Of a stretch of 64,000 nucleotides of DNA, positions 31,492-60,454 are shown one piece after another. Both the position numbers and the translations under genes were made by a program. Position 1 is the stretch's first letter; every line of letters begins with the position of its first letter. Source of the stretch: an uncultured Sphingomonas sp. (lineage in GTDB: Bacteria; Pseudomonadota; Alphaproteobacteria; Sphingomonadales; Sphingomonadaceae); the NCBI RefSeq assembly GCF_937859915.1, contig NZ_CALMAW010000053.1, positions 1 to 64,000 of the forward strand, written 5' to 3'. The notes under the pieces were generated by a model. It had not been told where the DNA came from and searched no databases. It saw nothing but the letters and a program-made list of their open reading frames with translations.

Positions 31492-31974
31492 AAGGTTCTG
31501 CAGCGGATGGCATCATCGGCACGATCGCCAGGATCGAAACCGCGACGATAGGCAAAATCGGCGCCGGGACGGCTTCTGAATATCCTATCCACGAAGCAAT
31601 GACCGCAATTGGGATGCGACTTCCGCAAGCCGAATGACGAGACCGAGCGGCGACCGGCCGTCTACCGCGCGAGAAGCGGCCGGACGGCGTTCCGGCTGCT
31701 CGCCAGTTAGAGCGCACAAGAACGCGGGAACGCGGGGTGCGCCGTCCAACCGGTACAAGTGATCTGCTCGCGCCGCCGCCGCATCTGAGCGCGAAAACGC
31801 GCTTTCCCGGATATCGTCATAGCGTGAATGGGTCGAAAGCGGGATATCGGCTCGTGGTTCACTCTCAGTCAAACGCGTGGCGTTGCGATCGCGACACACA
31901 TGAGGGTATTGCCAAACTTCGACCCTTATTATATGGAATATCGTATACGAATGATGCGCTGGAGGACTGGAATT
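31492..31974. other. intergenic region with promoter of the hydroxyproline operon at its right end
   Basis: About 480 bases. No supported gene lies in the left 430. The right end carries operator copy A (31936-31951) and the ribosome-binding site GGAGG (31961-31965) for the DapA-family gene. Confidence 0.5.
31936..31951. promoter_or_regulatory. operator-like site A of the locus-wide regulon
   Basis: GAATATCGTATACGAA, with the perfect 10-base palindrome TCGTATACGA at 31941-31950. It shares the word ATATCGTAT with sites B-E and lies 23-39 bases upstream of the DapA-family start. I infer it is bound by the GntR/FCD regulator encoded at 39448-40092. Confidence 0.72.
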
Positions 31975-40092: not shown

Positions 40093-40232
40093 CGTCTTTG
40101 GAACTCCATCAGGAAGTGGAGGACTATGCCGTAGCGCGAACGGTTCCGCCACTAGGATGCAGCGCGATCATGCTGATTTTCGCGGGAAAAGCCGGCAGGC
40201 GTCGAAGTCATCCAGCTTCTCCATTGCATCGA

Positions 40233-40248
40233 TATATCGTATACGATA
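40233..40248. promoter_or_regulatory. operator-like site B (best palindrome) of the locus-wide regulon
   Basis: TATATCGTATACGATA includes the perfect 14-base palindrome TATCGTATACGATA at 40235-40248. It lies between the GntR gene (start 40092, minus) and the oxidoreductase gene (start 40275, plus), 27 bases from the latter. This is the strongest site and the model for the consensus. Confidence 0.78.
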
Positions 40249-40274
40249 GATCCGCCGGGGCATCAAGGCAGGAT

Positions 40275-42715: not shown

Positions 42716-42739
42716 CGAGGCGCGTCCTCATTCCTCGTC
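42714..42739. terminator. possible bidirectional hairpin between convergent genes
   Basis: GACGAGG (42714-42720) and CCTCGTC (42733-42739) form a perfect 7-base stem with a 12-base loop. It lies at the convergent ends of the M24 and DUF885 genes and overlaps the last codons of the latter. No U-tract follows, so it is a weak intrinsic terminator at best. Confidence 0.35.
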
Positions 42740-44491: not shown

Positions 44492-44525
44492 GCGACCTGC
44501 CCCTGTTTGCAATATGCCAAGGATC

Positions 44526-44540
44526 GTATATCGTATTCTT
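44526..44540. promoter_or_regulatory. operator-like site C of the locus-wide regulon
   Basis: GTATATCGTATTCTT shares ATATCGTAT with the other sites and differs from site E at one position of its 13-base core. It lies in the 70-base spacer between the divergent DUF885 (start 44491) and GH127 (start 44562) genes, so one site could control both. Confidence 0.7.
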
Positions 44541-44561
44541 GTGACAGGCAAGGAGAGTGCG

Positions 44562-46958
44562 GTGCGCGAGGCGTTGGCGGGAACACGGCGGGAATGGCTG
44601 ACGGGGGCCGGCATCGTGGCGTTGGCGAGCGGTCTCAGCGCGCGTGGATCTGCTGCGCTGGCGGCCAGTCCGGGGCTGCTGCCTGACCGCGTCGAACCGC
44701 TACCGCTCGCTGCGGTGCGTCTGCTGCCGTCGCCCTTCCTGGATGCTGTGAACGCCAACCAGCGCTATCTGGCATCGCTCGACCCGGATCGCCTGCTGCA
44801 CAATTTCCGGACCGGCGCGAGGCTTTCGCCAAAGGCCGCGGCTTATGGCGGTTGGGAGGGCGACACGATCGCCGGCCACACGCTCGGCCATTATCTTTCC
44901 GCGCTCGCGCTGATCCATGCGCAGACCGGCGACACCGAGGCCAGGCGCCGCGTCGACTACATCGTCGCAGAGCTCGCCGCTTGCCAGCGGGCGCGCGGCA
45001 ACGGCTATGTTGCGGGCTTGCTGCGCAAGCGCAAAGACGGCAGCCGTGTCGACGGCGAGGAGATATTCGGGGAGATCGCGCGCGGCGACATCCGCTCCGG
45101 CGGCTTTGATCTCAACGGCGCCTGGTCGCCACTCTATAATATCCACAAGACCTTTGCCGGTCTGCTCGATGCACAGCTGCATTGCGACAATCGACAGGCG
45201 CTCGACGTCGCCATCGGGCTGGCGCGCTATTTCCAGCGGCTGTTCGCCGCCTTGAGCGACGAGCAGATGCAGGCGATGCTCGGCTGCGAATATGGCGGAC
45301 TGAACGAGAGCTTCGCCGAATTGTCGGCGCGCACGAGCGATCCGCAATGGATGGCCGTTGCCGAGCGTATCCACGACAATGCGGTGCTCGTGCCGTTGGA
45401 GCGCGGGCAGGACGATCTGCCCAACATCCACGCCAACACCCAAATTCCAAAACTGATCGGCCTCGCGCGCATCCACGAGATCACCGGCCGCGCGACCCCC
45501 GGCGTCGGCGCGCGCTTCTTCTGGGACACGGTGACGCGCCATCACAGCTATGTCATCGGGGGCAATGCCGATCGCGAATATTTCTTCGCTCCCGATGCAA
45601 TATCCCAGCATATCACCGAGCAGACCTGCGAACATTGCAACAGCTATAATATGCTCAAGCTGACCCGGCATATCTACGGCTGGCAGCAGCCTGACGCTGC
45701 ACTGTTCGACTATTATGAACGGACCCACTTCAACCATATCCTCGCAGCACATGACCCCAAGACGGGGATGTTCACCTATATGACGCCGCTGATGTCGGGC
45801 ATCAAACGCGATTGGTCGTCGCCGACCGAGGATTTCTGGTGCTGCGTCGGCTCGGGAATGGAAAGCCACGCCAAGCATGGCGAGTCCATCTATTGGGTGG
45901 GCAAGGCGGCGCTTCTGGTCAATCTCTTCATTCCATCTCGCGCGCATTGGGCGGCAAAGGGCGCGGATATCGAGCTCACCACCGCCTACCCCTATCACGG
46001 CGAGATCACGCTGAGACTGGCGACATTGAAGCAGGTCGGTGCCTTTGCGATCGCGCTACGCGTGCCGGGCTGGTCGACGTCGGCCGCGATCGCGGTCAAC
46101 GGGCAGCCGGTCGAGGCCGAACGTGCGGCCGGCTATGCGGTCGTACGTCGCCGCTGGCAGGAGGGCGATATCGTGACGATGACATTGCCGATGGACCTGC
46201 GCATGGAATCCACCTCCGACGATCCCGACACGATCGCCATCCTGCGCGGGCCGCTGGTGCTCGCGGCGGATCTGGGGGCAGCCGATTTGCCGGTCGTGAG
46301 TGGCGCAGCACCGGCGCTGGTCGGCAACGACATCCTCGCCGGCTTCCGCGCGGATCCGGCGCAGCCGGCACTCTACCATACGAAGGGGCTGGGCCGACCG
46401 GCGGACATGCGTTTCGGTCCCTTCTACAGCGCCTATGACCGACGCAGCGCAGTCTATTTCAAGCGGTTCACCGATGCCGGCTGGGAAACCGAGAAGGTCG
46501 CGTTCGCGGCGGAGCAGGCGCGGCTTGCCGATCTCGCGGCGCGCTCGGTCGACGTCATGCATCTTGGCGAGATGCAACCCGAACATGATCACGGCCTGAC
46601 CTCCGACATCTCCTATCCGGTGGTCTATCGCGGCCGTAACGGACGCGATGCCCGCAGCGGCGGCTTCTTCCAGTTCGTGATGAAAACCCGCCCCGGCCCC
46701 CTCCTGCTCGAGGCAACCTACTGGGGCGACGAGCGCAAGCGCGCCTTCGACATCCAGATCGACGGCCATACGATCGCGACGCAGCAGCTCGAGGCGCTCA
46801 GACCCGGTCAGTTCGTTGACGTCGACTATCCGCTGCCCGAAGCGCTGACCCGCGGCAAGCCGAGCGTCACCGTCCGCTTCCAGCCGCACGTCGGGCATAC
46901 GGCGGGGCCGGTCTTCGGCGTGCGCCTGTTCACGCCCAAGCCGGTTCCCACAGTCTGA
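44562..46958 (+). CDS. GH127-type beta-L-arabinofuranosidase
   Basis: A 798-aa protein with a Tat signal (TRREWLTGAGIVALASGLSA) and a GH127-like (alpha/alpha)6 barrel. The zinc/cysteine active-site signature is complete: Glu357-His-Cys359 in CEHCNSYNMLK and Cys427-Cys428 in WCCVGSGMESH. It corresponds to Glu338, Cys340, Cys417 and Cys418 of HypBA1 of Bifidobacterium longum. HypBA1 removes beta-L-arabinofuranose from hydroxyproline-linked arabino-oligosaccharides. The GTG start at 44562 follows AAGGAG; the upstream ATG frame runs through the operator. GH146 is the alternative family label, with the same linkage. Confidence 0.9.
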   Translation: MREALAGTRREWLTGAGIVALASGLSARGSAALAASPGLLPDRVEPLPLAAVRLLPSPFLDAVNANQRYLASLDPDRLLHNFRTGARLSPKAAAYGGWEGDTIAGHTLGHYLSALALIHAQTGDTEARRRVDYIVAELAACQRARGNGYVAGLLRKRKDGSRVDGEEIFGEIARGDIRSGGFDLNGAWSPLYNIHKTFAGLLDAQLHCDNRQALDVAIGLARYFQRLFAALSDEQMQAMLGCEYGGLNESFAELSARTSDPQWMAVAERIHDNAVLVPLERGQDDLPNIHANTQIPKLIGLARIHEITGRATPGVGARFFWDTVTRHHSYVIGGNADREYFFAPDAISQHITEQTCEHCNSYNMLKLTRHIYGWQQPDAALFDYYERTHFNHILAAHDPKTGMFTYMTPLMSGIKRDWSSPTEDFWCCVGSGMESHAKHGESIYWVGKAALLVNLFIPSRAHWAAKGADIELTTAYPYHGEITLRLATLKQVGAFAIALRVPGWSTSAAIAVNGQPVEAERAAGYAVVRRRWQEGDIVTMTLPMDLRMESTSDDPDTIAILRGPLVLAADLGAADLPVVSGAAPALVGNDILAGFRADPAQPALYHTKGLGRPADMRFGPFYSAYDRRSAVYFKRFTDAGWETEKVAFAAEQARLADLAARSVDVMHLGEMQPEHDHGLTSDISYPVVYRGRNGRDARSGGFFQFVMKTRPGPLLLEATYWGDERKRAFDIQIDGHTIATQQLEALRPGQFVDVDYPLPEALTRGKPSVTVRFQPHVGHTAGPVFGVRLFTPKPVPTV

Positions 46959-46984: not shown

Positions 46985-48487
46985 TTACGGTGCCCGCGTA
47001 AGCCGCAACAGCATCGCGCCATGGCCGGGGATCTCCCAGGTCCGCCGTGTCGGGCTGTCGGGAACGCCGGCCCACACGTCCACGAGCCTTGCGATCCGCG
47101 CGAGGCCCGCATCCTGTAGAGTAAAGCCGATGTCGCGCGCGGTCGTGCCGCGGTTGAACAGCGCGAGCGCGACCGATCCGTCGGCGAGCGGCCGCGCCCA
47201 GATTTCGGCGTCGCCATCCTTGCGGATGCGCCGCGCCTGCCGGCCGAGCGGATCCTGGTCGATCGCGATCACGCCGCGACTTTCGAGCAGCGCGATCGTC
47301 GCCGGCGACATCGTGCGGACGTCGTTGCCGAGCATCAACGGCGCGGCCAGCATCGCCCATAGCGTCATATGCGTGCGATATTCGTCCTCGCTCATCCCGC
47401 CATTGCCGATCTCAAGCATGTCGGGATCGTTCCAGCCGCCGGGACCGGCGGTGGCCGCGTCGCCGTCCTTGTCGAAGCCGATCGCCGCCATCGCGGCATA
47501 ATTGTCCGCGATGTCGCCGGTCGTGCGCCAGAGATGACCGCCGACGCCGCTGCCCCAGGTGCCGACGCGGTCGCGGCCATATTGGCACAGGCTGTAGACG
47601 ATCGGCCGACCCGTCGCGCGCAGCGCCTGCCCCATCTGCTGATAGGCGAGCCTGACCTCGGCGGCGGTGCGGAAAATGCCCTCGCCCGAGCAGAGATCAT
47701 ATTTCAGATAGTCGACGCCCCATGCCGCGAAGGTCCGCGCATCCTGTTCGACATGACCGTAGCTGCCCGTGAAACCCGCGCAGGTCTTCGGCCCGGGCGA
47801 GCTGTAGAGGCCGAGCTTCAGGCCTCGCGTATGAACATAGGCGGCAAGCGCTGGCATGTTGGGGAAGCGGGCATTGGCGCGGATCGCGCCGTCGGCGCTG
47901 CGCGTGCCCTGCCAGCCGTCGTCGATGTTGACGTAGCGATAGCCGGCATCCCGCAGGCCGGAGCTGACGAGGTGATCGGCGATCGCGCGGACGGTGGCGT
48001 CGTCGATCGCGGCGGCAAATCGGTTCCAGCTGGACCATCCCATTGGCGGGGTCGGCGCGAGGCCGTCGGCGGCGAGCGTGACGGGCGCAGGCAGCGGCGC
48101 GCGCGGGAAGGCGAGGCGGGTGGCGTCGGTCGCGGTGCCGCGGCGGAGCGCGGACTCGACGTGGCGCTCCCAGATGTCGCCGGTGACGCGCAGGCGCGTG
48201 CCGTCGATCGTTGCGGTCCATGGCCGCGGCGGCAGGCGCGGATTGCCGTTGTCGATCAGGAAATGCGCGGTGCCCCCGGTGACGGCAAGCGCGCGCATCG
48301 GCACGTCGCCATACCAGTCGGTGGTGACCGACCCGCGCCAGCCGCCGGCGTCGCGTGACAAGCGTAGCATGCGCAGGCCGGGAAATTCCGCCGATCGCGG
48401 GAAGAGCCAGACGCCGCCCATCGCGGTCCGAGGAGCGGCCGGCGCGGCGAGGGTCAGCGCGATGAATGCCGACAGCAGCCCTCGCAT
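46985..48487 (-). CDS. GH27 alpha-galactosidase-like enzyme
   Basis: A 500-aa exported protein. A signal peptide and an extra N-terminal beta domain of about 120 residues precede a GH27 TIM barrel (PPMGWSSWNRF). The nucleophile is Asp264 in YLKYDLC, the acid/base Asp lies in WRTTGDI, and GGWNDPDMLEIGNGG follows. The C-terminal beta domain is complete. GH27 members cleave alpha-galactosides and some cleave beta-L-arabinopyranosides. In extensins Ser carries single alpha-galactose, a plausible target. It overlaps or abuts the GH2 gene; a GTG at 48496 that overlaps the GH2 stop is an alternative start. Confidence 0.92.
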   Translation of the reverse strand: MRGLLSAFIALTLAAPAAPRTAMGGVWLFPRSAEFPGLRMLRLSRDAGGWRGSVTTDWYGDVPMRALAVTGGTAHFLIDNGNPRLPPRPWTATIDGTRLRVTGDIWERHVESALRRGTATDATRLAFPRAPLPAPVTLAADGLAPTPPMGWSSWNRFAAAIDDATVRAIADHLVSSGLRDAGYRYVNIDDGWQGTRSADGAIRANARFPNMPALAAYVHTRGLKLGLYSSPGPKTCAGFTGSYGHVEQDARTFAAWGVDYLKYDLCSGEGIFRTAAEVRLAYQQMGQALRATGRPIVYSLCQYGRDRVGTWGSGVGGHLWRTTGDIADNYAAMAAIGFDKDGDAATAGPGGWNDPDMLEIGNGGMSEDEYRTHMTLWAMLAAPLMLGNDVRTMSPATIALLESRGVIAIDQDPLGRQARRIRKDGDAEIWARPLADGSVALALFNRGTTARDIGFTLQDAGLARIARLVDVWAGVPDSPTRRTWEIPGHGAMLLRLTRAP

Positions 48488-48492
48488 GATCG

Positions 48493-50958
48493 TCACGCGC
48501 CGGTGCCGATGAACGGCAGCATGGCGGCGGCGAGCCCGTCGGACGAGGCGGTCAGACGGATCGTGCCGCCGCGGTCACCGGCCTGGACGATCGCCATGCA
48601 CAGCCCGTTGAACGCGGAGCGGGCGGTGGCATGGTCGGGCTCGAGGCTGCGCGGATCGCCATTGCCGACGCCGAGCAGTTTGGCATCGCCCGACAGCGCA
48701 AAGACGACGTGATTGGACGCAGTCGGTACCTCGCGGCGGTGCGTGTCGAGGATCGCGGCGCGCACCACGGCGACTTCCCCGGGCGCGAGTTGGCGGCGAT
48801 CGCTCGACAACTTGACACGCGTCGGTGCGCCGGTCGTCTCGCGCGTCGCGATCAGCGTGCGCTGCCCGGCCCGGAATCCGTGCGCCTCGATCCGGCCGGG
48901 TACGTAGGGTACCTGCCATTCGAGGTGGCGGTTGCGCTCGACACTCTTGCGGCCGAGGCTGCGGCCGTTGACGAACAGCTCGACTGCCTCGCAATTGCTG
49001 TGCACCCAGACGGGCACCGGCTTGCCCTCGCGCCCGGGCCAGGTCCAGTGCGGGAAGAGATGGAGTATGGGGTCCGGCCCCCACCAGGCGCGGTAATACC
49101 AGTAGTCGTCCTTGGGAAAGCCGCAGCTGTCCATCTGGCCGAAATTGGAGGCGTTTTCCGGCCAGCGCTCGAAGGGTGTCGGCTCGCCGCGATAGTCGAA
49201 CCCGGTCCACACGAAGCCGCCCGCGAGGAAGGGCCGCGCGTCGTAGAAGCTCCACCAGGTCTCGGCGGTGGTCGCCCAGCGCGGGAAGTCGGTGTCGTAG
49301 GCGGGCACCACGCCGGCCTTGTCGTCGCGGACATATTCGCCGCGCGTCATCACCGTGCTGGCGACTTCGGTGCCGATCATTGGCGTGGTTGGGTGCGCGG
49401 CGTGAAAGGGGTCGACCTCGCCGAGGAAATAGTTGCAGCCCTGCACGTCGAGGATGCGTGAGGCGCCCTGGCCGAACTTGCCGTTAAACGCCTCGGTGAC
49501 GGGGCGCGTGCCGTCGAGCTCGTAGACGCGACGCTTCATCGTCTCGGCGATCCGCGCGCCGGTCTCGGTGCCGCGGTGGATCTCTTCGTTGCCGATGCTC
49601 CACAGAATGACGCTCGGGTGGTTGCGACCCTGGCGGACCAGCCGGTCGAGCTGGCTCATGCCTTCCGCATCGCTCGACATCTGCCGGGTCTCGTCCATGA
49701 CGAGAATGCCCATCCGGTCGCAGGCGTCGAGGATGGCGCTGTTGGCGGGGTGATGCGTCGAGCGATAGGCGTTGCTGCCCATCGCCTTGAGCTGCTCGAG
49801 CCGCCAGACGTGCAGGCTGTCGGTCACCGCGAAGCCGACGCCGGCATGATCCTGGTGGTTGCAGGTGCCCTTGATCTTCACCGGCTTGCCGTTGAGGAAA
49901 AAGCCGTGGTCCGCATCGAAGCGGATGCTGCGGATGCCGAACCGGGTCTCGTCGCGGTCGACGACGGCGTCGGCGACGACGATGTCGCTTGCCAGCGTGT
50001 AGCGCTGCGGCGTCTCCAGCGACCATAGGGCCGCCTGTGCGATCATCGTCTCCTGCGGGACGGTGACGCTGCCCCAGGCGGGCAGGGCGATCGGCTCCGA
50101 CAACAGGGTGGCCGCGATGCGCCCGTCGGGTCCGGTGACCGTCGAACGCACGCGCGCGCTGGCCGCGGGGCCGTCATTGTCGATCTCGGTCGCGATGCGT
50201 AGCCGCGCGTCGGCGCCGAGGATTTCGGATCGCACCGTCGCACCCCATTGGCGGATATGCGCGGGCGCGGTCTCGACCAGCCGGACGTGGCGATAGAGGC
50301 CGGCACCCTCATAGGACCAGGCTTCGCCGAGGCTGACGTCGCAACGGACGACGAGCATGTTCGTCTCGCCCGGTCTGGCGAAGTCGGTGATGTCGATGCG
50401 GAAGGGTGCGTAGCCGCTCTCGTTCGACCCGACGACGAAGCCGTTGAGGATGACGAGGCAGTTGCGCGAGACGCCGTCGAATTCGAGTGCGAGGCGTCGG
50501 CCGGCGTCCTCGGCCGCGATCGGCAGCGTGCGGCGATACCAGCCGACGCTGGTCGCGGGCCACAGCCGGCCGACCGGCTTGAACCCCTGATAGGCGCCGG
50601 TGCGATCGAGATCCGAGCCCGGCGGGCCGAACTGCTCGAACGGCAGATCGACCGCCCAGTCGTGCGGCAGGTCGACCGGCTGCCACTCCTTGTCGTCGAA
50701 GCTCGCGTCGGCGACCGGCGTGCCGACGTCGCCCGACTTGCCATAGGTATCGTGCGAGGTGCCGAAGCCGAAATCCTTGGCCGGATCGGCGGCGTGACCG
50801 AGGTGGAAGCGCCAGCCGCGATCGAGCGGCACGACGCGGCGCGGGAAGGGCGCCGTAATGGCGGCAGGCGCTGCTCGCGCCATCGCCGGCAGTAGAGCGA
50901 CCGCGCTCACCGCGCCGCCCGTTTTCAGCAGGTCGCGGCGGTGGACGCGGTCGGTCAT
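48493..50958 (-). CDS. GH2 beta-galactosidase-like enzyme, Tat-exported
   Basis: An 821-aa protein with a twin-arginine signal (HRRDLLKTGGAVSAVALLPA). Domains: GH2 sugar-binding jelly roll (~40-210), Ig-like domain (~215-320), TIM barrel (~330-610) with acid/base Glu458 in WSIGNEEIH and nucleophile Glu531 in IGTEVAST, and C-terminal DUF4982-like and Ig-like domains. Beta-galactosidase is the most common activity of this architecture, but beta-glucuronidase or others are possible. It follows the TonB receptor by 50 bases, separated by a strong hairpin. Confidence 0.92.
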   Translation of the reverse strand: MTDRVHRRDLLKTGGAVSAVALLPAMARAAPAAITAPFPRRVVPLDRGWRFHLGHAADPAKDFGFGTSHDTYGKSGDVGTPVADASFDDKEWQPVDLPHDWAVDLPFEQFGPPGSDLDRTGAYQGFKPVGRLWPATSVGWYRRTLPIAAEDAGRRLALEFDGVSRNCLVILNGFVVGSNESGYAPFRIDITDFARPGETNMLVVRCDVSLGEAWSYEGAGLYRHVRLVETAPAHIRQWGATVRSEILGADARLRIATEIDNDGPAASARVRSTVTGPDGRIAATLLSEPIALPAWGSVTVPQETMIAQAALWSLETPQRYTLASDIVVADAVVDRDETRFGIRSIRFDADHGFFLNGKPVKIKGTCNHQDHAGVGFAVTDSLHVWRLEQLKAMGSNAYRSTHHPANSAILDACDRMGILVMDETRQMSSDAEGMSQLDRLVRQGRNHPSVILWSIGNEEIHRGTETGARIAETMKRRVYELDGTRPVTEAFNGKFGQGASRILDVQGCNYFLGEVDPFHAAHPTTPMIGTEVASTVMTRGEYVRDDKAGVVPAYDTDFPRWATTAETWWSFYDARPFLAGGFVWTGFDYRGEPTPFERWPENASNFGQMDSCGFPKDDYWYYRAWWGPDPILHLFPHWTWPGREGKPVPVWVHSNCEAVELFVNGRSLGRKSVERNRHLEWQVPYVPGRIEAHGFRAGQRTLIATRETTGAPTRVKLSSDRRQLAPGEVAVVRAAILDTHRREVPTASNHVVFALSGDAKLLGVGNGDPRSLEPDHATARSAFNGLCMAIVQAGDRGGTIRLTASSDGLAAAMLPFIGTGA

Positions 50959-51008: not shown

Positions 51009-53975
51009 TCAGAGGTTGACCGTCGCGCCGACGAAGATCGTGCGGCCCAGCGTGTCGTAGACGCCCGGATAGGTGTTGCCGTTGCCGAAGGATTCGAGAA
51101 TGCCGGAGGCAATCGCGGGCGGATCCTTGTCGCCGATGTTGTTGACGCCGGCGCGCAGCTGAAGGCCGTGCGGGAAGGTCTTGGTCACGGCCAGATCGAA
51201 GTAGTTGTAGGTCGGGATGTGGCTGTTGATCTGGCTGCCCACGCCGGTGAGGAAGCTGTTGCTCGACAGGCTGGACAGCTTGGTCCGGTCAATCATGCGC
51301 CAGGCCAGCGACAGCGAGGCGTCGCCCGGGATCAGCCAGGTGATGCGCGCGACATGGTGCCAGGTCGGGTTGGGCTCGCCGCAGGTATAGCCGTAATAGC
51401 CCTTGCAGTCATAGGAGCCGAGACCCGGCAGCGGTTCCGCGACTTGGTGCAGCAGCAGCGTGCCGACGAGGTTGAAGTTGATCTTGCCGTGCTTGCCGAT
51501 GCCCAGCGTGTAGTCGGTGTCGAAGTCGAGGCCCGAGGTTTGGAGATAGCCGGTGTTGTAGGTGGTCGAGACGATGTAGCCGCCGGCCGTCGTGCTCCCG
51601 AAGATCGCGCCCGACTGCGGATCGCGGTGGAACAGGCTGCAATAATAGGGATCGCCCGTCGAGATGCACTGGCTGATCGCGAGCGAGGGCGCGATCGAGC
51701 TGATATAGTCCTTCACCTTGATGTGGTAATAGTCGAGCGAGAAGGAGAAGTTGCGAATCTGGTGGGGGGTCAGCACCAGGCCGATCGTGTAGGTGTCGCC
51801 TTTTTCCGGCTTGAGCTTGGCGTTGCCGCCGTAGAGCTCGTCGCAGGTGTCGGCCGGGCACTGAGGGATCTTGCCATATTGTGCGGCGGAAACGCCGGTC
51901 AGCGCGCAGGCGGTCGTCGTCGCGGTGGGCTTGACACCGGCGCAGGGATCATCGGACGAGACGTTGCCGATGCCCTGCGAGCCGAACAACTCGCTGATGT
52001 TCGGCGCGCGGATCGCACGGTTGTAGCTGGCGCGCAGGCGGACGTCGGTCGTCGGCGCCCAGTTGAGCTCGGCCTTGTAGGTGTAGACATTGTAGTTGGA
52101 GGCGAAGCCCGTCGAGCTCTGCGAATTGTGATAGGCCGAATAGCGCACGCCGCCGTCGATCGACACTTCATGCGCGAACGGCATGTCCTGCAGGATCGGC
52201 ACCTCGATCTCGCCATAGCCCTCGTTGACGGTGATGCGGCCGTCGGTCGGCACCGCGCCGCCTTCCTGTGCCACCGCGTCGGCGGTGTAGATCAGCGATT
52301 CGTGGCGATGTTCGGCGCCGATCGCGATGTTGACGCCGCGCGTCGCCCACGGGCTGGTCAGGCCGAAGGTGCCGAGATCGCCGGTGATGCTCGCCGAGAT
52401 GACGGTCTGCGTGTCGCGCTCGGCGGTGTTGCTGTCCGCGAACAGATATTGCGCCTGGCTCGAGGAAATGCCGTTCGACTGGAAGATGTTGATCGGCACG
52501 CAGCTCGGATCACTGCCGTCGACGACCGACTGGCAGGTCGGCGTGCCGTTGACGTTGACGACATCGATCGCGCGCTGCGCCTTGATGGTGTCGACATTGT
52601 TCAAATAGGTCTCGTTGTAGCGGACCAGCGAGTGGAGATAGTTCACGTCATAGCTGAAGCCGTGGCCGATATCGCCGCGGACGCCCGCGGTATAGCGGAA
52701 GTCGTTGTGGCGCAGATCGTCGCGACGCGAGAAGTCGCTGTTGAGACGGTAGCCGATCAGCGTCTGCTCGGTGGCGTTGGTGCCCGCGGCCGCGCCGCAC
52801 AGCGTTGTCGCCTGCTGCGCGCTCATCAGCGGATTGTCGCAGTTGAGCGTGAAACTGCTGCCGAGGAACAGCGCGGAGGGCGCGACCTGCGAGAAGGTCG
52901 TATCGCGCATGAACATGAAGCTGCCGTAGAGTTCGGCGGCGGGGCTGATCTTGAACTTGCCGAAGGCGCCGGCGGTGTAGCGCTTGTCGGAGCGCTGGAT
53001 GTAGTTGCTCGGGGAATAATTATAGGCGTAGCTGCTGTCGTAGGGCACCCAGGTCTTGGAGCCGTCCTTCGAATTGGTCAGATACTGACCTCCGGCGCTG
53101 GGGCCGGTCAGCGGCAGGAAGGTGCCGTAGGTCGAGGTGCTGGAACCGCCGCAGACCAGGCCGGTGCCGGCGGTGTCGAGCTGATTGAGCGCGCAGCTCG
53201 AGACGTCGCGGGTCGATTCGAGCACCGGATCGGCCTGGCGATAGCCGCCATAGACGGTGATGTTGCCGCGGCCGTCGGCGAAATTCTTGCCATAGGCGAC
53301 GTTGACGTTCTGCTTACCGCCGTCGAGCACGGTGTCCGGCGCGGTGGTATAGCCCGCCGCGCGGTTAACGCCGCGCACATAATTGTTGCCATTGTCGTGC
53401 TGGTCGATGCCGGTCTGAGCATCGATCCGCAGGCCGTCGAGATGATCCTCGATGATGAAATTGACCACGCCCGACAGCGCGTCCGAACCATAAACGGCCG
53501 AGGCGCCGCCGGTGACGACGTCGACGCGCTTGACCAGCGACGACGGGATGAAATTGAGATCGATCGCCTGCGACGACATCATCCGCTGGCCGTTGATCAG
53601 CGTCAGGACGCGGCTGGAGCCGAGGTTGCGCAGATTGACCTGCGAGGTGCCGTTCGAGCCGTTGGAGACGTTCTCGTTGGCATCGGCGGTAAACTGCGGC
53701 AGCCGATTGAGCACGTCGACGATATTGGTCGCGCCCTCGAGCTTGACCTCCTGGTCGCTCACCGTCGTCAGCGGGCTATTGCTCTGCAGATCGGGGCGCT
53801 TGATGCGCGTGCCGGTGACGAGAATCTCGTTCGAGCTGTCGCCGGTATTGTTGGGCGAGGCATCCGCCGCAGTCGGCACGGGCGTCACCTGCGCATAAGT
53901 GGTCGACGACAATAACGCCGTAACCAAGGCGCCGATCGCGGCATTGCGTCTGGTCGCAGCCGTATAGTTTCGCAT
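51009..53975 (-). CDS. TonB-dependent outer-membrane receptor
   Basis: A 988-aa receptor with a signal peptide (ALVTALLSSTTYAQ) and a TonB-box-like EILVTGTRI. The plug domain (DVLNRLPQFTADANEN, LRNLGSSRVLTLINGQR, YGSDALSGVVNFII) is followed by a 22-strand-type barrel ending GRTIFVGATVNL. It is the large sphingomonad/xanthomonad type that takes up glycans or glycopeptides. The Met at 53975 follows AAGGGGAA and is preferred to the upstream Met. It heads the TonB-GH2-GH27 operon under site D. No SusD-like protein is present, as usual in Proteobacteria. Confidence 0.95.
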   Translation of the reverse strand: MRNYTAATRRNAAIGALVTALLSSTTYAQVTPVPTAADASPNNTGDSSNEILVTGTRIKRPDLQSNSPLTTVSDQEVKLEGATNIVDVLNRLPQFTADANENVSNGSNGTSQVNLRNLGSSRVLTLINGQRMMSSQAIDLNFIPSSLVKRVDVVTGGASAVYGSDALSGVVNFIIEDHLDGLRIDAQTGIDQHDNGNNYVRGVNRAAGYTTAPDTVLDGGKQNVNVAYGKNFADGRGNITVYGGYRQADPVLESTRDVSSCALNQLDTAGTGLVCGGSSTSTYGTFLPLTGPSAGGQYLTNSKDGSKTWVPYDSSYAYNYSPSNYIQRSDKRYTAGAFGKFKISPAAELYGSFMFMRDTTFSQVAPSALFLGSSFTLNCDNPLMSAQQATTLCGAAAGTNATEQTLIGYRLNSDFSRRDDLRHNDFRYTAGVRGDIGHGFSYDVNYLHSLVRYNETYLNNVDTIKAQRAIDVVNVNGTPTCQSVVDGSDPSCVPINIFQSNGISSSQAQYLFADSNTAERDTQTVISASITGDLGTFGLTSPWATRGVNIAIGAEHRHESLIYTADAVAQEGGAVPTDGRITVNEGYGEIEVPILQDMPFAHEVSIDGGVRYSAYHNSQSSTGFASNYNVYTYKAELNWAPTTDVRLRASYNRAIRAPNISELFGSQGIGNVSSDDPCAGVKPTATTTACALTGVSAAQYGKIPQCPADTCDELYGGNAKLKPEKGDTYTIGLVLTPHQIRNFSFSLDYYHIKVKDYISSIAPSLAISQCISTGDPYYCSLFHRDPQSGAIFGSTTAGGYIVSTTYNTGYLQTSGLDFDTDYTLGIGKHGKINFNLVGTLLLHQVAEPLPGLGSYDCKGYYGYTCGEPNPTWHHVARITWLIPGDASLSLAWRMIDRTKLSSLSSNSFLTGVGSQINSHIPTYNYFDLAVTKTFPHGLQLRAGVNNIGDKDPPAIASGILESFGNGNTYPGVYDTLGRTIFVGATVNL

Positions 53976-54014
53976 GGATTTCCCCTTCGCCGTTGAGGCT
54001 TTGTGGGGGCAATC

Positions 54015-54035
54015 CATCATGATCGCAGCATGATG
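54015..54035. promoter_or_regulatory. perfect inverted repeat in the leader of the TonB-receptor gene
   Basis: CATCATG (54015-54021) and CATGATG (54029-54035) are a perfect 7-base inverted repeat with a 7-base spacer, between site D and the receptor start. It could form a leader hairpin or bind a second regulator. No other copy was noticed in the window. Confidence 0.45.
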
Positions 54036-54084: not shown

Positions 54085-56388
54085 TTACCCGATGTCGACC
54101 CGGATGTGTCGATGCCGTGGCCCTTGCGAGAGCAAGATAATGTCTCGGCCGTCCTCGATACGGACCGGGGCTCCGGCGACGGTCGCCCGGTGGATTATCT
54201 GGCCCTTGGGGAAGCGAATGCGCAGGCGCGTCTCGCGCGGCGCGCGCGGCGGAAGCTGGATCTCGCCTTCAATGAGCTGGGGCGACGTCGCGCGCAGCGA
54301 GAAGCCGACCGGGCCCCAGCGCGTCGGCGCGTCGGCGATCGCGATCGGCCGGCCCGATGCGATCCAGCGCGTCGGCACGGCGCGCGCGAGATGGAGCCGG
54401 TCGGCATCGGCATCCTCATAAACGAGCATCCAGCGGACCAGCGTCGGGATGGTCAGCTGCGCGGGAATGCAGAACAGCGCGAGATCGCCGTTGATCCCCG
54501 AGACCTCCCCGCCCATCCAACTGCCGCGCGTGTGCGCGTGGAAACGGTGCGCATAGAGGAACAACAGATATTCCTCGATCCGGTCCTGCCGCAGCAGCGC
54601 CTCAGCATAGCCGTAGGAGATGAAGCCAAGGATATCGCGGCTCTCGGCATTGGGCCGCCCGATATTGGCAACGACGCCCAGCGTCGTGCCGCCATGCCCG
54701 CGCAGGCAGTCGATCACCAGCGCCTCGAGGTCCGCGGGCAGCACGCCGGGCTGGAGCAGCTCGGCATAGGCTCGATGCGGCCAGCCCTGTTCGGATTCGG
54801 TCTCGCGCGTCAGCGCCTCGCGAAAGGTCTCGCTGACACCGGGCAGTGGGCCGACATAGGGTGGTTTGAGGTCATGGCGGATATTGGCGCGAAGCCGCTG
54901 GACGAGCTGCGCCTGCAACCGATCGGCGCGCGCTGACCAGTCGCGCGCATCGGCGGACGTGCCGCCGATCGCAGGCCAGACCGCGGCGATCTCGCGCCAG
55001 CCGCGGACCGCGAAGGCGGAATTGGCCCAATAGGGCTTCCACCAGATCGTCGGATCGGGATGGAGGCAGGAATCGGACTCGTTCCAGCCGTGGATGAGGC
55101 CGTAGCCGCGGTCGGTAACGGACAAAGCGAGGCTCTGGTCGTGCAACTCGGCGAGCAGCGTCGCGGTCGCGCGGATCTTGTCGCGGTGCCGGCCGAGCGT
55201 CGCGACGTCGCCGGTCAGCTGCAGGTAGCGCGCGAGCAGCGCCAGCGTGAGGCCATATTGCGCGGTTTCGGGGCCGCGCATGTCGACGAGGCCATCGGGC
55301 TGGACGAAGGCGGTGAAATATTGGTCGAGCACCGCGCGGGCCTGCGTGAAACGGCCCCACAGCAGATTGGCGTAGAGCGAGCTGGTGAACGTGTCCTGGA
55401 AGCCGTCATATTCCGAGCCGTAATAGTCGCGGTCGACCGCGCCATATTTGGGCCAGACGCCGTTCGGGCGGACGATCAGCTCCTTGGCGAAGGCGTGATC
55501 GACCATGTCGGTCCATTCCGGATCGGGCAGCGTGGCCGAGGTGCCCTCGGCGAGCTCGGCCTGCCAGCTCCGCGCGAAGCGGAACAGCGCGGTGTAGAAG
55601 GCCTCGGGCGTCGGATGCTCGCGGCGAGGCGGATAGGGGGCGTAGCTGTGGCCATAGTCGGCAGCGACGATTTTGCCCTGCTCGACATGCAGCGTGCGAT
55701 GCCAGGTCTCGACGATGAAGCGATTGTCGGCGTCGGTATCCGCGAAGACGATCATATCCCAGACGCCGCCCGCCTTGCGCGGGATGACCTTGTGCACCGC
55801 CGGCAGCCAACCGCCGAGCAGCCCCTCGCGGCGTTTGAGCGCGACGTCGTCGCCGGACAGCTCGGGGAAACGGTGCTCGGGGCGGTAGGTGCGCGTACGG
55901 CCGTTGCGCATCACCGGCATCGTGTCCTCGGCCTGCTTGGTCCCGACCAGCGTCGTCCACGGCAGCCGCGCGCCGATCTCGTCGGCCTTGAAGTTCGACG
56001 CGCTCGGCGGGGCGGCGTCGCGTACCCGGTCGGGATCGGGGTCGCCGCCGCCGGCGAGCAGCGCGTCGGCGAGCAGGTCGGCGTCGGCGAGCGCGATGTC
56101 GCGCATTCGCAGGCCAAGATGCGCGGGCGCGGCGGTGGCGAACATCGCCTCGGTCCGCTTGGCGAGCTGCAGCGCGCCCGAGGCCGACGAGAAGCTGATC
56201 GCGCCGTCGGGATCGCGCAGATCCTCCCACACCGCGAAGCGCGTGCCGTCGATCGTGACGTCGAGCAGATGCGTGTGCCCTGCCAGCGCGCTTTCCGGCA
56301 GGATCGGTAGCGGCGCCGCGCGCAGTGTTTCGCTGGTGAGGGCCGCGGTGGCGACGACAGAGGATTGCAGGAAATCACGGCGGTTCAT
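54085..56388 (-). CDS. Tat-exported glycoside-hydrolase-like protein, family unassigned
   Basis: A 767-aa protein with a clear twin-arginine signal (NRRDFLQSSVVATAALTSE). I cannot place it in a named family. The central half is rich in helices and aromatics (YGSEYDGFQDTFTSSLYANL, GPETAQYGLTLALLARYLQL, GLIHGWNESDS), which looks like an (alpha/alpha)6 toroid. The C-terminal part is a beta-sandwich typical of toroid glycosidases. Carboxylates in HGWNESDS and GPETAQYG are candidates for catalysis. It overlaps the POT transporter gene by 4 bases (ATGA), in the site E operon. I infer a glycosidase for plant cell-wall glycoprotein sugars. Confidence 0.75.
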   Translation of the reverse strand: MNRRDFLQSSVVATAALTSETLRAAPLPILPESALAGHTHLLDVTIDGTRFAVWEDLRDPDGAISFSSASGALQLAKRTEAMFATAAPAHLGLRMRDIALADADLLADALLAGGGDPDPDRVRDAAPPSASNFKADEIGARLPWTTLVGTKQAEDTMPVMRNGRTRTYRPEHRFPELSGDDVALKRREGLLGGWLPAVHKVIPRKAGGVWDMIVFADTDADNRFIVETWHRTLHVEQGKIVAADYGHSYAPYPPRREHPTPEAFYTALFRFARSWQAELAEGTSATLPDPEWTDMVDHAFAKELIVRPNGVWPKYGAVDRDYYGSEYDGFQDTFTSSLYANLLWGRFTQARAVLDQYFTAFVQPDGLVDMRGPETAQYGLTLALLARYLQLTGDVATLGRHRDKIRATATLLAELHDQSLALSVTDRGYGLIHGWNESDSCLHPDPTIWWKPYWANSAFAVRGWREIAAVWPAIGGTSADARDWSARADRLQAQLVQRLRANIRHDLKPPYVGPLPGVSETFREALTRETESEQGWPHRAYAELLQPGVLPADLEALVIDCLRGHGGTTLGVVANIGRPNAESRDILGFISYGYAEALLRQDRIEEYLLFLYAHRFHAHTRGSWMGGEVSGINGDLALFCIPAQLTIPTLVRWMLVYEDADADRLHLARAVPTRWIASGRPIAIADAPTRWGPVGFSLRATSPQLIEGEIQLPPRAPRETRLRIRFPKGQIIHRATVAGAPVRIEDGRDIILLSQGPRHRHIRVDIG

Positions 56389-57731
56389 GCGGCCTCGCGG
56401 GTCGGATAGAGGGGGGCGGAGAGCGGCCTTCTGAGCACCAGCGCGATCAGCACGCCGGCCGCCGCGATCGCCGCCTGCAGCATCCAGAAGCGCGTCGGGC
56501 CGAGCGGTGCGTAGAAGCGCGCGAGCCAGCCTGCGGTCAGATTGGCGACGAACAGGCCGGCATAGGCGACACCCATCAGCGTCGCGGTCAGCCGCGCCGG
56601 TGCGGCGCGCGACACCGCGGCAAGCAGCACGGGCATCACATACAGATAGGCGGACGAGGACAGCAGGAAATAGCCGAACCCCCAGAAGGCGCCGAGCGCG
56701 TGCGGGGTCGGCCAAGCATATGCGAACAGCGCGAGCAATCCGTCCGCTGCCGCCATCATCGCGCAGCCGATCGCGAATTTGGAGGCGACGCGCGGCTCGC
56801 GCCCAGCCGCCGCCTGGCGTTTCCACAGGAACATCACCAGCGGCGTCGACAGCACCGTTATCAGCCCGTCGCTCGACAAATACCAGGCGACGGGAATCTC
56901 GAACCCGCCGACATGGCGGTCCGCGGCGTCCCGGATCCACAAGGGGAAAACGTCATAGCCCTGCCCGAACGGGACATTGTAGCAGAGCGACACCGCGACG
57001 AGCCCGAGCAGCGCGGCGATCCGGCGCCCCTCGCCCGCCTGTCCGGCCTCGCGCACCGCGTCGCGGCCGCGTGGTCGGTCGGCTGGAAGATGACGCCAGC
57101 CCGCGGCGTAGATCGCGATGCCGACGAGCATGCCGATGCCGGCGCTGGCGAAGCCGAGATGCCAGTTGTGCGTCTCGCCGATCGAGCCGCAGACCAGCGG
57201 GCCTGCGAAGGCGCCGATGTTGATGCCAAAGTTGAACAGCAGAAAGGCGCGGTCGCGCCGCATGTCGTCTGGCGCGTAAAGTCTGCCGACTTGGGTCGCT
57301 ATATTGCCCTTGAGGCAGCCCGAACCGCAGATCAGCGCGGCGAGCGCGATCAGGAAGCTGGCGTCGAAGGCGAGGAGGAAATGGCCGAGCGCCATCAGCC
57401 CCGCGCCAAGCAGGACAGTGCGGCGGCCACCAAGCAGGCGATCGCCGACGAGCCCGCCGATCAGCGGGGAGAGATAGACCAGGCCGGTATATAGCCCGAA
57501 AATCTGCGACGCGAGCGCTTGGTCGGAAAGAGGCCCCGTGACCGCCTCCACGCACGTCCGGAACAGCGCGAAGCCCCAAATCACCCGGCCGCCGCCGGAC
57601 GGCAATAACACCGTGGCCATGTAGAGCATGAGGAGCGCCTGCATGCCGTAGAAGGAAAATCTTTCCCACGCCTCCGTGCCGGACAGAATGGCCAAGCCGC
57701 GGGGGTGGCTGACGGTCGCGTCGCGGGTCAT
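56385..57731 (-). CDS. POT-family proton-dependent oligopeptide transporter
   Basis: A 448-aa membrane protein with about 12 helices. The POT signature ExxERF is in EAWERFSFYGMQALLMLYM (residues 20-38), followed by LSPLIGGLVGDRLLGGRR and FLLFNFGINIGAFAGPLVCG. POT proteins import di- and tripeptides with protons. Its presence in a glycosidase operon is unusual and points to a peptide-bearing substrate. It overlaps the genes on both sides by 4 bases, so expression is coupled to both hydrolase-like proteins. Confidence 0.92.
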   Translation of the reverse strand: MTRDATVSHPRGLAILSGTEAWERFSFYGMQALLMLYMATVLLPSGGGRVIWGFALFRTCVEAVTGPLSDQALASQIFGLYTGLVYLSPLIGGLVGDRLLGGRRTVLLGAGLMALGHFLLAFDASFLIALAALICGSGCLKGNIATQVGRLYAPDDMRRDRAFLLFNFGINIGAFAGPLVCGSIGETHNWHLGFASAGIGMLVGIAIYAAGWRHLPADRPRGRDAVREAGQAGEGRRIAALLGLVAVSLCYNVPFGQGYDVFPLWIRDAADRHVGGFEIPVAWYLSSDGLITVLSTPLVMFLWKRQAAAGREPRVASKFAIGCAMMAAADGLLALFAYAWPTPHALGAFWGFGYFLLSSSAYLYVMPVLLAAVSRAAPARLTATLMGVAYAGLFVANLTAGWLARFYAPLGPTRFWMLQAAIAAAGVLIALVLRRPLSAPLYPTREAA

Positions 57732-60439
57732 GCGCGGACCAGCCGGATCATCGTCGTGTCGTCGGACAGCGGCACGACATGCGCGCCTCTTTCGATAGAA
57801 AGCGGTGCGGAAGCGGTATAACCCTTACCCTCAATGACCAAGCGCGCCGCCCGCGTGGTAGCGTCCCGAGCGTCGAAGACGAGCGCGACCTCGCCGCTTA
57901 CAGTATCGAAGCGCGCAGCAACGAAACGGCCGGCTTCGAGCACCAGCCACAGCCTCGCAGGCGCGATGAAGATCCGCGTCCGAGCGCTGTCCTTGGGCAC
58001 GAGGCGAATGCTCGCCCCGTCCGCGCGGACATCCCCACCGAAACCGATCCAGCCGAATTCGGGATGGTTCACCAGATAGCTGGCCGTCCCGAAGGCATGA
58101 CCGAAGTAGCTCATCCCGTAATCGCCCGAATAGGCGTCGAACCGCATCATGTCCGGATAGGAATGGAACGCGCAGGCGCCGAACCCCTCTCGATCGATGT
58201 TGGTGAGCGATCCCATCAACCCGCCGTAGGCGACGCGCAGCAAATGAATATCGTCGGGGTCGCGGCGATAGCTGTCGAACAGCGGCAGCGCGTTGAGCGT
58301 GGATCCATAATGGTGGAGCTGCCGCTCGATGCGCGCGGTCTTACCCGCGAACAGGAAATCCCAATAGCGCCGCGCGCTGCCGTTATAGCCCCAATGCGGG
58401 ATGAGGGGGTCATACCCCAGGATCACCTCGCGCGTCAGGACGGCCTTCGCATCGTCGCCGAAGTGGCGCATCCAGGCATAGACCTCCTCCTGGCCGGTCG
58501 AATCCCACGGCATCTCGCTGCCGAAGGGAAAGGCCTCCGCGCTCCATCGTGCCGCTCGCCTCTGCATGTCGGCCTCGAGTGCGTCTGCCTGCGCGGTCAT
58601 CGCCTCGCGGCGGAGGTCAGCGAGGAGTGCGACCAGCACGTCGCCTTCCATCTGCCCGAAGCCGACATATTGCGGGGCAAACCGGGTCATGGCGAGCGCG
58701 GTGCGTGCTGCGCGGTCGAGATACCAGCGCCAGTTGTGTGCCGTGACGAGACCCGTCCGGTTGCGAGCGAGCCGGTAGAGCACCCATTGTGCGGCGGCAA
58801 CGTGGACGTAGTTGAAGGACCGCACGATCGATCGCGCTTCCTCGACGTTCCAGCTCGACCAGCCCGTCCAGTCGATCGCGGGATCATAGTCCGAGGCATG
58901 GGATGGCTCGTACCAGAACAGGCTCTTGCGGACGCCGTCACGGAGCGGCCCGTCGGGCACTTGGAGATGCCGCTCGATCACCTCGACGTGGAACCGCTCG
59001 AATTTGGCGAGTTCGGAGGCCTCGGGATTATCGAGTTGCTTCATGATCGCGGCAAGCCAAGATCCGGCGCCGCCCTCGTCGCTCAGCCCGGCGATCCAGA
59101 CGCGCTTTTCCTGCGTGACCAGAGCGTTCTTTTCACGGTCGTAGCTCAGCACCGACGGACTTCGGCCGAAATGATCGTCCGGATCCTCAAACCATTGCCG
59201 GCTGAACAGGAATTTGCCGAGATCGGCGGCTACTTCCCGCGCGGGCTTCGTCACGAAATAATGGACGCTTTGGCGGCTGCCGTCTCCATGACGGAGTGTG
59301 ACGCGTGCGCGGCCCCAGTGTAGCCCGGTCAAACGGAAGCGCTGCCACGCACCGGTTGCTGCGATCTGCTCAATCGTGATCGCGCCCAGCGGGAATACGT
59401 CGATTCCCGCCACCCCGTGCGGAGACTTGACGAACAAGTCGGCAGTAAGATCAGGCGCCAGCACATAGCCGGGTATGCCCACCGCCACCGGCTGCCCCGC
59501 CTCGGCCAGCCGCCGTTCTATGGATCGGATGTTGGGGGCCAGGATGATGCGCAGGCCGAACCGACGTTCCTCGCCGGGTGCGAGCGTAAATCCGCTTGGC
59601 TCGTTCCACTGTTCGGCACCCTGCCATTCGCGGTCCGCGAAACCCCGGCTTGCCACCATCCAGCGGTAGAACCCCTCGAATGTGAGGCTGCGCTTGGTCC
59701 GATCCTTGAGCAGCGCAGCTCCGCCATCGGTTGCTTTACCGTCGGCGATCGGCATCCAGGCCTCGAACGGCGTTCCCGGCTCTGGAATGATCAGCAATGC
59801 CGGACCTTGCCCGTTCAAGCGCGTTACCTGGAGATGGCCGCCGTCTAGCCCGACATACGGGTCTGCAAAGCTCGCATGTGCGTGGGCCTGCTCGAGTGTT
59901 CGATCGGTCAATATGTTGTCGAAAGGCATGGCGAAGCCGACACCGCCGATGTCGACGGGCGACGTCGTGAGGTTGCGCAACGTGAAGCGCAGGACGAGTG
60001 CATCACCGTCGAAAAGCCATCGCCGTTCGATGCGAAACGGCAAGCCCGCGGGGAGCGTCGGCGAGAGATCGGCCGCAGCGATACTGCCGTGCTCCGCGGG
60101 CAGCGGGATGACCGGTATGCGACGGAAGGCCGTCGAAATATCCCGCCACATGCCATCGGACCGGAAGCGGATGTCGATGTCGCCGAGGGCATAGTCGCCC
60201 GCTGCTATCTCCGCATGGCGATCGGGCGCGAAGTCGAAACCCGGCGTGATGGCGGGCGAAAGCGATCGCAGTACCTGTGACGACGAGGTGAGACCAACGA
60301 CCAGGGAGGAAGACGCCCAGCGGCGGCCGTCTGGCTCCGATGTCGCGCGCGCAAGCGCGCGGTTCAGAGGCCAACCGTTGCCGAGACACAATATTGGCGC
60401 TCCGGATAGGAGCTCGCGACGCCGCATTGCCACAGCCAT
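57728..60439 (-). CDS. large Tat-exported protein, DUF5695-like, probable glycoside hydrolase
   Basis: A 903-aa protein with a twin-arginine-type start (MRRRELLSGAPILCLG). An N-terminal beta-sandwich (~residues 30-370) is followed by a helical toroid-like region (WTGWSSWNVEEARSIVRS, FAPQYVGFGQMEGDV, FGSEMPWDSTGQEEVYAWMR, IPHWGYNGSARRYWDF) and a C-terminal beta domain. I recall similar proteins annotated DUF5695 in xanthomonads and fungi, but I am not certain. Candidate acids are in QMEGDV and DSTGQEEVYAW. The ATG at 60439 follows GAGGATAG; the upstream TTG is rejected. First gene of the site E operon. Confidence 0.72.
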   Translation of the reverse strand: MAVAMRRRELLSGAPILCLGNGWPLNRALARATSEPDGRRWASSSLVVGLTSSSQVLRSLSPAITPGFDFAPDRHAEIAAGDYALGDIDIRFRSDGMWRDISTAFRRIPVIPLPAEHGSIAAADLSPTLPAGLPFRIERRWLFDGDALVLRFTLRNLTTSPVDIGGVGFAMPFDNILTDRTLEQAHAHASFADPYVGLDGGHLQVTRLNGQGPALLIIPEPGTPFEAWMPIADGKATDGGAALLKDRTKRSLTFEGFYRWMVASRGFADREWQGAEQWNEPSGFTLAPGEERRFGLRIILAPNIRSIERRLAEAGQPVAVGIPGYVLAPDLTADLFVKSPHGVAGIDVFPLGAITIEQIAATGAWQRFRLTGLHWGRARVTLRHGDGSRQSVHYFVTKPAREVAADLGKFLFSRQWFEDPDDHFGRSPSVLSYDREKNALVTQEKRVWIAGLSDEGGAGSWLAAIMKQLDNPEASELAKFERFHVEVIERHLQVPDGPLRDGVRKSLFWYEPSHASDYDPAIDWTGWSSWNVEEARSIVRSFNYVHVAAAQWVLYRLARNRTGLVTAHNWRWYLDRAARTALAMTRFAPQYVGFGQMEGDVLVALLADLRREAMTAQADALEADMQRRAARWSAEAFPFGSEMPWDSTGQEEVYAWMRHFGDDAKAVLTREVILGYDPLIPHWGYNGSARRYWDFLFAGKTARIERQLHHYGSTLNALPLFDSYRRDPDDIHLLRVAYGGLMGSLTNIDREGFGACAFHSYPDMMRFDAYSGDYGMSYFGHAFGTASYLVNHPEFGWIGFGGDVRADGASIRLVPKDSARTRIFIAPARLWLVLEAGRFVAARFDTVSGEVALVFDARDATTRAARLVIEGKGYTASAPLSIERGAHVVPLSDDTTMIRLVRA

Positions 60440-60454
60440 GACTATCCTCAAATC

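Follow-up and report, generated by a model that had tools for sequence, protein, structure and literature searches.

A putatively exported toroid protein of no named family recurs beside genes for the probable use of hydroxyproline-rich glycopeptides

Extensins and other hydroxyproline (Hyp)-rich glycoproteins (HRGPs) carry arabinofuranosyl chains and serine-linked galactose, and to our knowledge few enzymes are available to act on these glycans, namely those of glycoside hydrolase (GH) families GH121, GH127/146 and GH43. A 64,000-nucleotide stretch of DNA from an uncultured Sphingomonas sp. (contig NZ_CALMAW010000053.1; hereafter the window) places a gene for a 767-aa protein among genes that appear to serve HRGP use, and raises the question of what this protein, given the working name TOR, contributes there. 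TOR probably takes part, in one form or another, in the breakdown of HRGP glycans. The more specific account that we favor, held with a little more doubt than confidence, is that TOR acts in the periplasm as an exo-glycosidase, represents a new family and trims arabinofuranosyl chains linked to Hyp.

The TOR open reading frame (ORF) has an ATG start, an N terminus with twin arginines (MNRRDFLQ) and a coding-like GC content by codon position (0.70/0.50/0.86). Pfam TAT_signal scores it at 19.2 bits, under the 22.7-bit cut-off, and 78 of the 80 homologous loci compared, the best of 148 relatives found by scanning GTDB contigs, have the motif RRxF[LIM] close to the start. The gene boundaries, protein length and twin-arginine (Tat) signal proposed in a first-pass annotation of this DNA therefore hold. 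That annotation had also described TOR as both translationally coupled to a POT peptide transporter and fused into its operon. The TOR start and POT stop codons overlap as ATGA, which points to coupling rather than fusion, and the POT gene in turn overlaps the DUF5695 gene. A 951-aa ORF beginning at a GTG was considered as a TOR-POT fusion and rejected, since it merely reads into the POT gene across the ATGA overlap. A promoter and terminator scan gave two weak sites resembling promoters and three resembling terminators, about the chance level, and was not used.

Searches by sequence leave TOR without a family name, as the first-pass annotation had anticipated. TOR matches no functional family in Pfam beyond the sub-threshold Tat signal and no family in NCBIfam, and neither TOR, its alignments nor a 51-sequence profile found a believable match among PDB sequences. 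The models PF07944 (GH127/GH146), PF17389 (GH78) and PF22422 (MGH1-like/GH63) gave no match to TOR at E ≤ 1. Neither TOR nor its profile retrieved the HypBA2 structure 6m5a at E ≤ 10; a Xanthomonas GH121 does find it. Membership in GH127/146, GH121, GH78 or the MGH1-like family was rejected on these Pfam, PDB and profile comparisons. Among the papers listed in literature searches, none concerned TOR by its title or abstract opening. Judged against Pfam, NCBIfam and PDB sequences, the family appears to be new, and it may already be a CAZy family.

The predicted structure is more informative about the superfamily to which TOR belongs. An AlphaFold2 (AF2) model built from the 51 sequences is confident (mean pLDDT 87.3, pTM 0.91) and consists, in order, of a beta-sandwich, helices, an (alpha/alpha)6 toroid and a beta-domain, as delimited by AF2 and DSSP. 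Nearly all of the 50 Foldseek matches listed are toroid glycosidases or phosphorylases, and they include HypBA1 (3wrf, GH127), HypBA2 (6m5a, GH121), BT_1020 (5mqr), alpha-L-rhamnosidases, disaccharide phosphorylases and a GH116 enzyme. The 50 VIA-align entries listed have Z scores of 19.7-24.3 at 8-15% identity with no clear leader (e.g., 7c25 at Z 23.3 across 308 residues; 9ju0 at Z 24.3 across 466), and GH94, GH116, GH15, GH37, GH100 and other toroid families supply many matches only a few Z units apart. Neither list singles out one toroid family. The AF2 model and the Z scores nonetheless place in TOR the toroid catalytic domain of the six-hairpin ((alpha/alpha)6) glycosidase superfamily, so that the toroid-glycosidase-like layout read earlier from the sequence has survived the structure prediction proposed as its check, with matches to many toroid enzymes. 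The predicted toroid fold is well supported; TOR is a member of the six-hairpin superfamily outside every family of the libraries searched (Pfam, NCBIfam, PDB).

The conservation of residues among the 51 aligned homologues suggests where an active site could lie. Glu437 and Asp439 (E437 and D439, in the motif HGWNESDS) and E628 are invariant in all 51, as are the acids D321, E326, D328 and D332 of loop H1-H2 and the start of helix H2 (helix numbering is our own). E374, in GPETAQYG, is kept in 96% of the sequences, and the acids that had looked conserved in a single protein are indeed so. Positions of at least 98% identity make up 62 of 168 in the long loops, 43 of 180 in the helices, 4 of 18 in the short loops, 38 of 222 in the N-domain and 11 of 112 in the C-domain. 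The long loops are assumed to form one face of the model, which would be the active-site face. According to the available part of one report (PMC7263609), the acid and base of GH63 and the putative ones of GH121 sit in corresponding toroid loops. Because the toroid loop positions match this plan, E628 is the candidate for the catalytic base, D439 (or E437) would serve as general acid, and D332 and E326 would hold the sugar.

A profile-profile comparison, also suggested by the first-pass annotation, linked TOR to uncharacterized toroid groups and named no characterized family. The groups compared hold 1-13 sequences each, and low probabilities among them are weak negatives. The TOR profile aligned with groups FB (L103, L105-107 and others) and FA (L101, L102, L104, L108) at probabilities of 97% and 95% and with a third group at 68%, whereas 13 other groups each fell below 2% and two non-toroid controls were at 0.1%. 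Among the families represented by just one or two sequences, GH78 gave 0.47% (two sequences), the MGH1-like family 0.65% (two sequences) and GDE_C 1.8%. By this measure FB and FA are the nearest sequence relatives of TOR found, and FB itself carries a weak PF17389 (GH78) signal. When aligned with FB, residues D332, E374, D394, D439 and E628 of TOR meet the same residue and E437 meets none. In the alignment with FA, D332 and E374 meet the same residue, alanine stands opposite D439, and neither E437 nor E628 is aligned. Kinship between TOR and DUF5695 was rejected (0.1%). Two FA members (L101:1-1803 and L108:1366-3129) each adjoin an ORF that we take, from its sequence, to be glycosyltransferase-like; FA is another unnamed toroid family.

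A further indication of function is the company that the TOR gene keeps. In the window, Hyp catabolism is indicated by a 4-hydroxyproline epimerase gene whose product scores above its model cut-off (Table 1). From its context, the DHDPS-family protein could be a Hyp-pathway deaminase, and the DAO-family FAD enzyme may act on D-Hyp; these two proteins and the permease have no NCBIfam match above cut-off. The DUF885 protein is presumably peptidase-type. The genome itself, which is 80% complete, has one PF07944 gene, located in the window, no GH121 match, and, elsewhere than on this contig, five matches to GH43, of which four exceed the cut-off. The PF07944 protein, labeled GH127 by Pfam, matches 5opj, which we take to be GH146, at 472.6 bits and the GH127 structure 4qjy at 72.1 bits.

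Table 1. Features of TOR and neighboring genes in the window
Feature	Coordinates	Strand	Evidence
TOR, 767 aa, (alpha/alpha)6 toroid protein of an unnamed family, putatively Tat-exported	54085..56388	-	ORF, Pfam, NCBIfam, PDB, AF2
TOR Tat-type signal peptide, residues 1-25, end estimated	56314..56388	-	Sequence, sub-threshold TAT_signal, low pLDDT at 1-23
TOR N-terminal beta-sandwich, residues 39-247	55648..56274	-	AF2/DSSP
TOR (alpha/alpha)6 toroid, residues 290-655	54424..55521	-	AF2; fold matches across ~286-657
TOR C-terminal beta-domain, residues 656-767	54088..54423	-	AF2
TOR loop H1-H2, residues 307-329, holds YGAVDRDYYGSEYDG, most conserved long loop	55402..55470	-	AF2, conservation
TOR loop H5-H6, residues 421-453, with the candidate general acid (E437 and D439 both invariant)	55030..55128	-	Alignment, GH63/GH121 positions
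Codon of invariant E628, ahead of last toroid helix, candidate catalytic base	54505..54507	-	Alignment, loop conservation
POT/PTR2 oligopeptide:H+ symporter, ATGA overlap with TOR	56385..57731	-	Pfam, NCBIfam, sequence
DUF5695 protein, upstream of POT	57728..60451	-	Pfam
TonB-dependent receptor, downstream of TOR	51009..54020	-	Pfam
GH2, NCBIfam beta-galactosidase GalA (1081.7 bits; cut-off 900)	48493..50958	-	Pfam, NCBIfam
GH27, alpha-galactosidase-type	46985..48496	-	Pfam
PF07944, GH127/GH146-type beta-L-arabinofuranosidase, best PDB match 5opj	44388..46958	+	Pfam, PDB sequence
DUF885 protein	42728..44758	-	Pfam (function unknown)
M24 peptidase; best NCBIfam match, below cut-off, is of Xaa-Pro type	41243..42715	+	Pfam, NCBIfam
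DAO-family FAD enzyme; match below cut-off to the D-amino acid dehydrogenase type	40098..41528	+	Pfam, NCBIfam
S9 DPP-IV-like peptidase	37067..39376	-	Pfam
Amino acid permease	33926..35347	+	Pfam
4-Hydroxyproline epimerase (539.9 bits; cut-off 376)	32905..33903	+	NCBIfam
DHDPS-family protein	31828..32898	+	Pfam

TOR has a patchy distribution. With its own genome included, it occurs in 4 of 298 genomes in the family and in 4 of 10 in the genus, and a search of the class with a profile of four sequences found it in 2 of 385. The 80 loci, whose clade labels were assigned by hand from record titles, comprise 34 from Xanthomonas, Stenotrophomonas and Pseudoxanthomonas, 27 from Acidobacteria, seven from Rhodanobacteraceae, six from Asticcacaulis, five from Sphingomonadaceae and one from Lysobacterales; L002-L004, L015, L016 and L118 lie outside this set. 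In a quick tree with long branches (out_G1024, L015), the rows of Lysobacteraceae, of Rhodanobacteraceae and of Caulobacteraceae each cluster together. The 8.2-kb contig L118 (G1024:C347) encodes a distant TOR relative (34% identity; L118:3813-6230) beside an ORF that we take, from its sequence, to be tryptophan-halogenase-like, and has no other HRGP partner among those tested.

Partner genes were sought within ~10 kb of TOR by tblastn (E ≤ 1e-10 and at least 90 bits), with gene calls based on ORF and GC heuristics; 56 of the 80 loci have full flanks. A GH127-type or GH121 gene, and hence one for a beta-L-arabinofuranoside hydrolase, is near TOR in the window and in 60 of the 80 loci (48 of the 56 with full flanks). 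Among the latter 56, at least one of S9, DUF885 and M24 is nearby in 47, and 41 combine such a gene with GH127-type or GH121. Individual counts per 80 loci are 42 for GH127-type, 20 for GH121, 22 for GH43, 27 for GH35-type, 5 for GH27, 38 for DUF885, 39 for S9, 16 for M24, 65 for the TonB receptor and 16 for DUF5695, while homologues of the 4-hydroxyproline epimerase and DHDPS-family genes are found in 6 and 13, respectively. Six TOR-carrying genomes (~24 Mb) gave 13 PF07944 rows, merged to 11 genes, and at that density ~1% of 22-kb stretches would hold a GH127-type gene by chance. As a small control, five 20-kb stretches away from TOR (L008, L009, L011, L012 and L013, among nine fetched) contained no GH127 or GH121, one GH27 hit (L009, 30%) and one DUF885 hit (L013, 47%). 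Gene order varies among lineages, which argues against simple inheritance of one block. Read from gene content, the recurrent setting of TOR is the use of Hyp-rich glycopeptides, and the extensin or HRGP context first proposed for the window extends to loci of Sphingomonadaceae, Asticcacaulis, Xanthomonas and relatives, Rhodanobacteraceae and Acidobacteria.

The identity of the partners changes from lineage to lineage. GH121 is confined to Xanthomonas-type loci, and GH43 occurs there and in two Asticcacaulis loci. The link to POT, prominent in the window, does not generalize: POT was rejected as a general partner because it is absent from all 80 other-species loci, and it appears to be local, being present in the close relatives L005 and L006 among those fetched. 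DUF5695 accompanies TOR in four of the five Sphingomonadaceae and 12 of the 27 Acidobacteria loci. Because it is absent from the 20 loci with GH121, the DUF5695 protein may stand in for GH121 or GH43. Its AF2 model is poor (pLDDT 60.6, pTM 0.45), and the accessible literature yielded DUF5695 in one fungal paper. In four Sphingomonadaceae loci (L018, L022, L024, L026) the DUF5695 gene is directly upstream of TOR, with overlapping stop and start codons. Of 77 loci, 12 have a DUF5694 gene directly upstream on the opposite strand, and 8 have a gene there for a Pro-kumamolisin/S8-type peptidase (examples of such upstream genes are L061:8183-9385 (-) and L089:1245-2903 (-)). The GH35-type neighbors are GH35/DUF5597 proteins (e.g., L018:18056-19717), and 25 of the 27 loci with one are Xanthomonas-type.

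One locus connects TOR to enzymes that have been characterized. In Xanthomonas euvesicatoria (L074), a TOR gene whose N-terminal end is cut by the contig start is followed by genes for a TonB receptor, a 1523-aa GH121 protein and a 528-aa GH43 protein. Gene order would allow the guess that this TOR is XCV2731. The 1523-aa protein matches HypBA2 (6m5a) at 8.6e-212, and the cloned XeHypAA likewise ends at 528 aa (PMC6085000, available text). Because the GH121 matches 6m5a and the GH43 ends where XeHypAA does, we infer that L074 contains the published xehypBA2-AA operon and that TOR is its unnoticed neighbor. The extensin context thus finds support where TOR adjoins genes taken for characterized Hyp-arabinoside enzymes (PMC6085000, available text). 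The accessible main text of that paper contains neither XCV2725-2727 nor XCV2730, and no mention of XCV2730-2732 was found in the literature texts searched.

From these data a pathway can be proposed in which plant HRGP glycopeptides would enter through the TonB receptor encoded beside TOR. Their O-glycans would then be removed in the periplasm by TOR together with partners of GH127/146, GH121, GH43, GH27 or DUF5695 type, after which the deglycosylated peptides would be cut by peptidases and taken up, and Hyp would pass into catabolism. The most likely target of TOR itself would be the Hyp-linked L-arabinofuranosyl chain.

Several observations weigh against this account. Without two weak GH127 hits (L073 and L090, 25-26% identity), the counts for GH127-type or GH121 fall to 58 of 80 and 47 of 56. 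The species behind the 80 loci are related to one another, and the loci do not count as separate events; the chance estimate covers GH127-type genes only, and peptidases and TonB receptors are common families. The GH127-type gene is not near TOR in four of six other TOR-carrying genomes checked (G294, G225, G052, G862), neither it nor GH121 is present in 8 of the 56 full-flank loci, and GH127, GH121, S9, DUF885, M24, DUF5695 and GH27 are all missing from L072 and L094. Profile comparison does not connect TOR with GH121 (0.7%), and with GH127 it connects the C-terminal domains only (17.8%). Within loop H1-H2, residues 315-328 of the model have low pLDDT; the proposed acid and base are not borne out by the FA alignment, and E437 is unpaired in FB and FA alike. 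Finally, three known enzymes already degrade the arabinoside Ara4-Hyp in X. euvesicatoria (PMC6085000, available text), and TOR, being beside two of them, would be partly redundant on it.

This redundancy also speaks for the main rival, in which TOR would be an alpha-galactosidase that removes the lone alpha-galactose carried by serine in extensin repeats. As its neighbors in X. euvesicatoria can account for Ara4-Hyp, TOR could supply a different step; no regular enzyme for this galactose was noticed in the TOR loci, and the partners vary (GH27 in just 5 of 80) while TOR is constant, as it must be in loci chosen by TOR. Several inverting toroid families, moreover, act on alpha-linked sugars. 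Against this, a GH27 alpha-galactosidase-type gene belongs to the same gene set in the window and in G225, and TOR matches no galactosidase family in Pfam or NCBIfam; we consider this alternative unlikely.

Less likely again is that TOR trims the side chains of arabinogalactan proteins, removing terminal arabinofuranose, arabinopyranose, rhamnose or galactose caps. An alpha-L-rhamnosidase is the top Foldseek match, GH2 is present in the window and GH35/DUF5597 genes are near TOR in 27 of the 80 loci, but a Pfam scan of 17 window proteins and 10 neighbor representatives found no typical arabinogalactan backbone enzyme. The arabinogalactan reading is weaker than the Hyp-arabinose one because the recurrent partners are of beta-L-arabinofuranosidase and peptidase type, with Hyp catabolism, and so point toward Hyp-arabinose and peptides. 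It is improbable that TOR is another kind of toroid protein (phosphorylase, transglycosylase or epimerase) or a sugar-binding non-enzyme, even though disaccharide phosphorylases and a glucose-2-epimerase are among the fold matches and the acid and base residues are unaligned in FA. Sugar phosphate from an exported phosphorylase would miss its use in the cytoplasm, and the invariant acids of TOR appear to occupy the glycosidase acid and base positions (PMC7263609, available part).

Trimming of Hyp-linked arabinofuranosyl chains therefore remains our preferred proposal for TOR. The superfamily and the pathway were already known, and what is new is the unnamed family. A broader claim is possible, though we rather doubt it: that TOR founds a new GH family for the O-glycans of plant HRGPs, common to acidobacteria, sphingomonads, caulobacters and xanthomonads, that it is an unrecognized member of the xehyp locus, and that it performs a step absent from the known pathway, such as removal of serine-linked galactose or trimming of intact arabinosylated polypeptide. 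As a family that recurs in such loci of sphingomonads, xanthomonads and acidobacteria, TOR would show how these bacteria use HRGP carbon and nitrogen, and it could be a tool for HRGP deglycosylation. GH121, by comparison, has been reported mainly from bifidobacteria and Xanthomonas (PMC7263609, available part).

Among known systems, GH121 (HypBA2, XeHypBA2) resembles TOR in its order of beta-sandwich, (alpha/alpha)6 barrel and beta-sandwich, and by position it has conserved acids in the corresponding toroid loops. However, the two have no detectable profile similarity, and TOR lacks the F5/8C and Big4 modules. In X. euvesicatoria a single gene separates GH121 from TOR, and because both occur side by side they are not alternatives to each other. 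GH127/GH146 (HypBA1, XeHypBA1, 5opj) shares the toroid fold by Foldseek and has a gene near TOR in 42 of the 80 loci. It differs in that TOR gives only the weak C-terminal-domain match and none to PF07944; TOR conserves C441 and C640 at 98% or more, two cysteines that might form a Zn-Cys site. A wider circle of toroid families, which we take in part to be GH63/MGH1-like, GH78, GH133, GH15 and GH94, resembles TOR in fold (Z 19.7-24.3) and in the loop positions of the candidate acid and base, and is set apart from it by the lack of any Pfam match.

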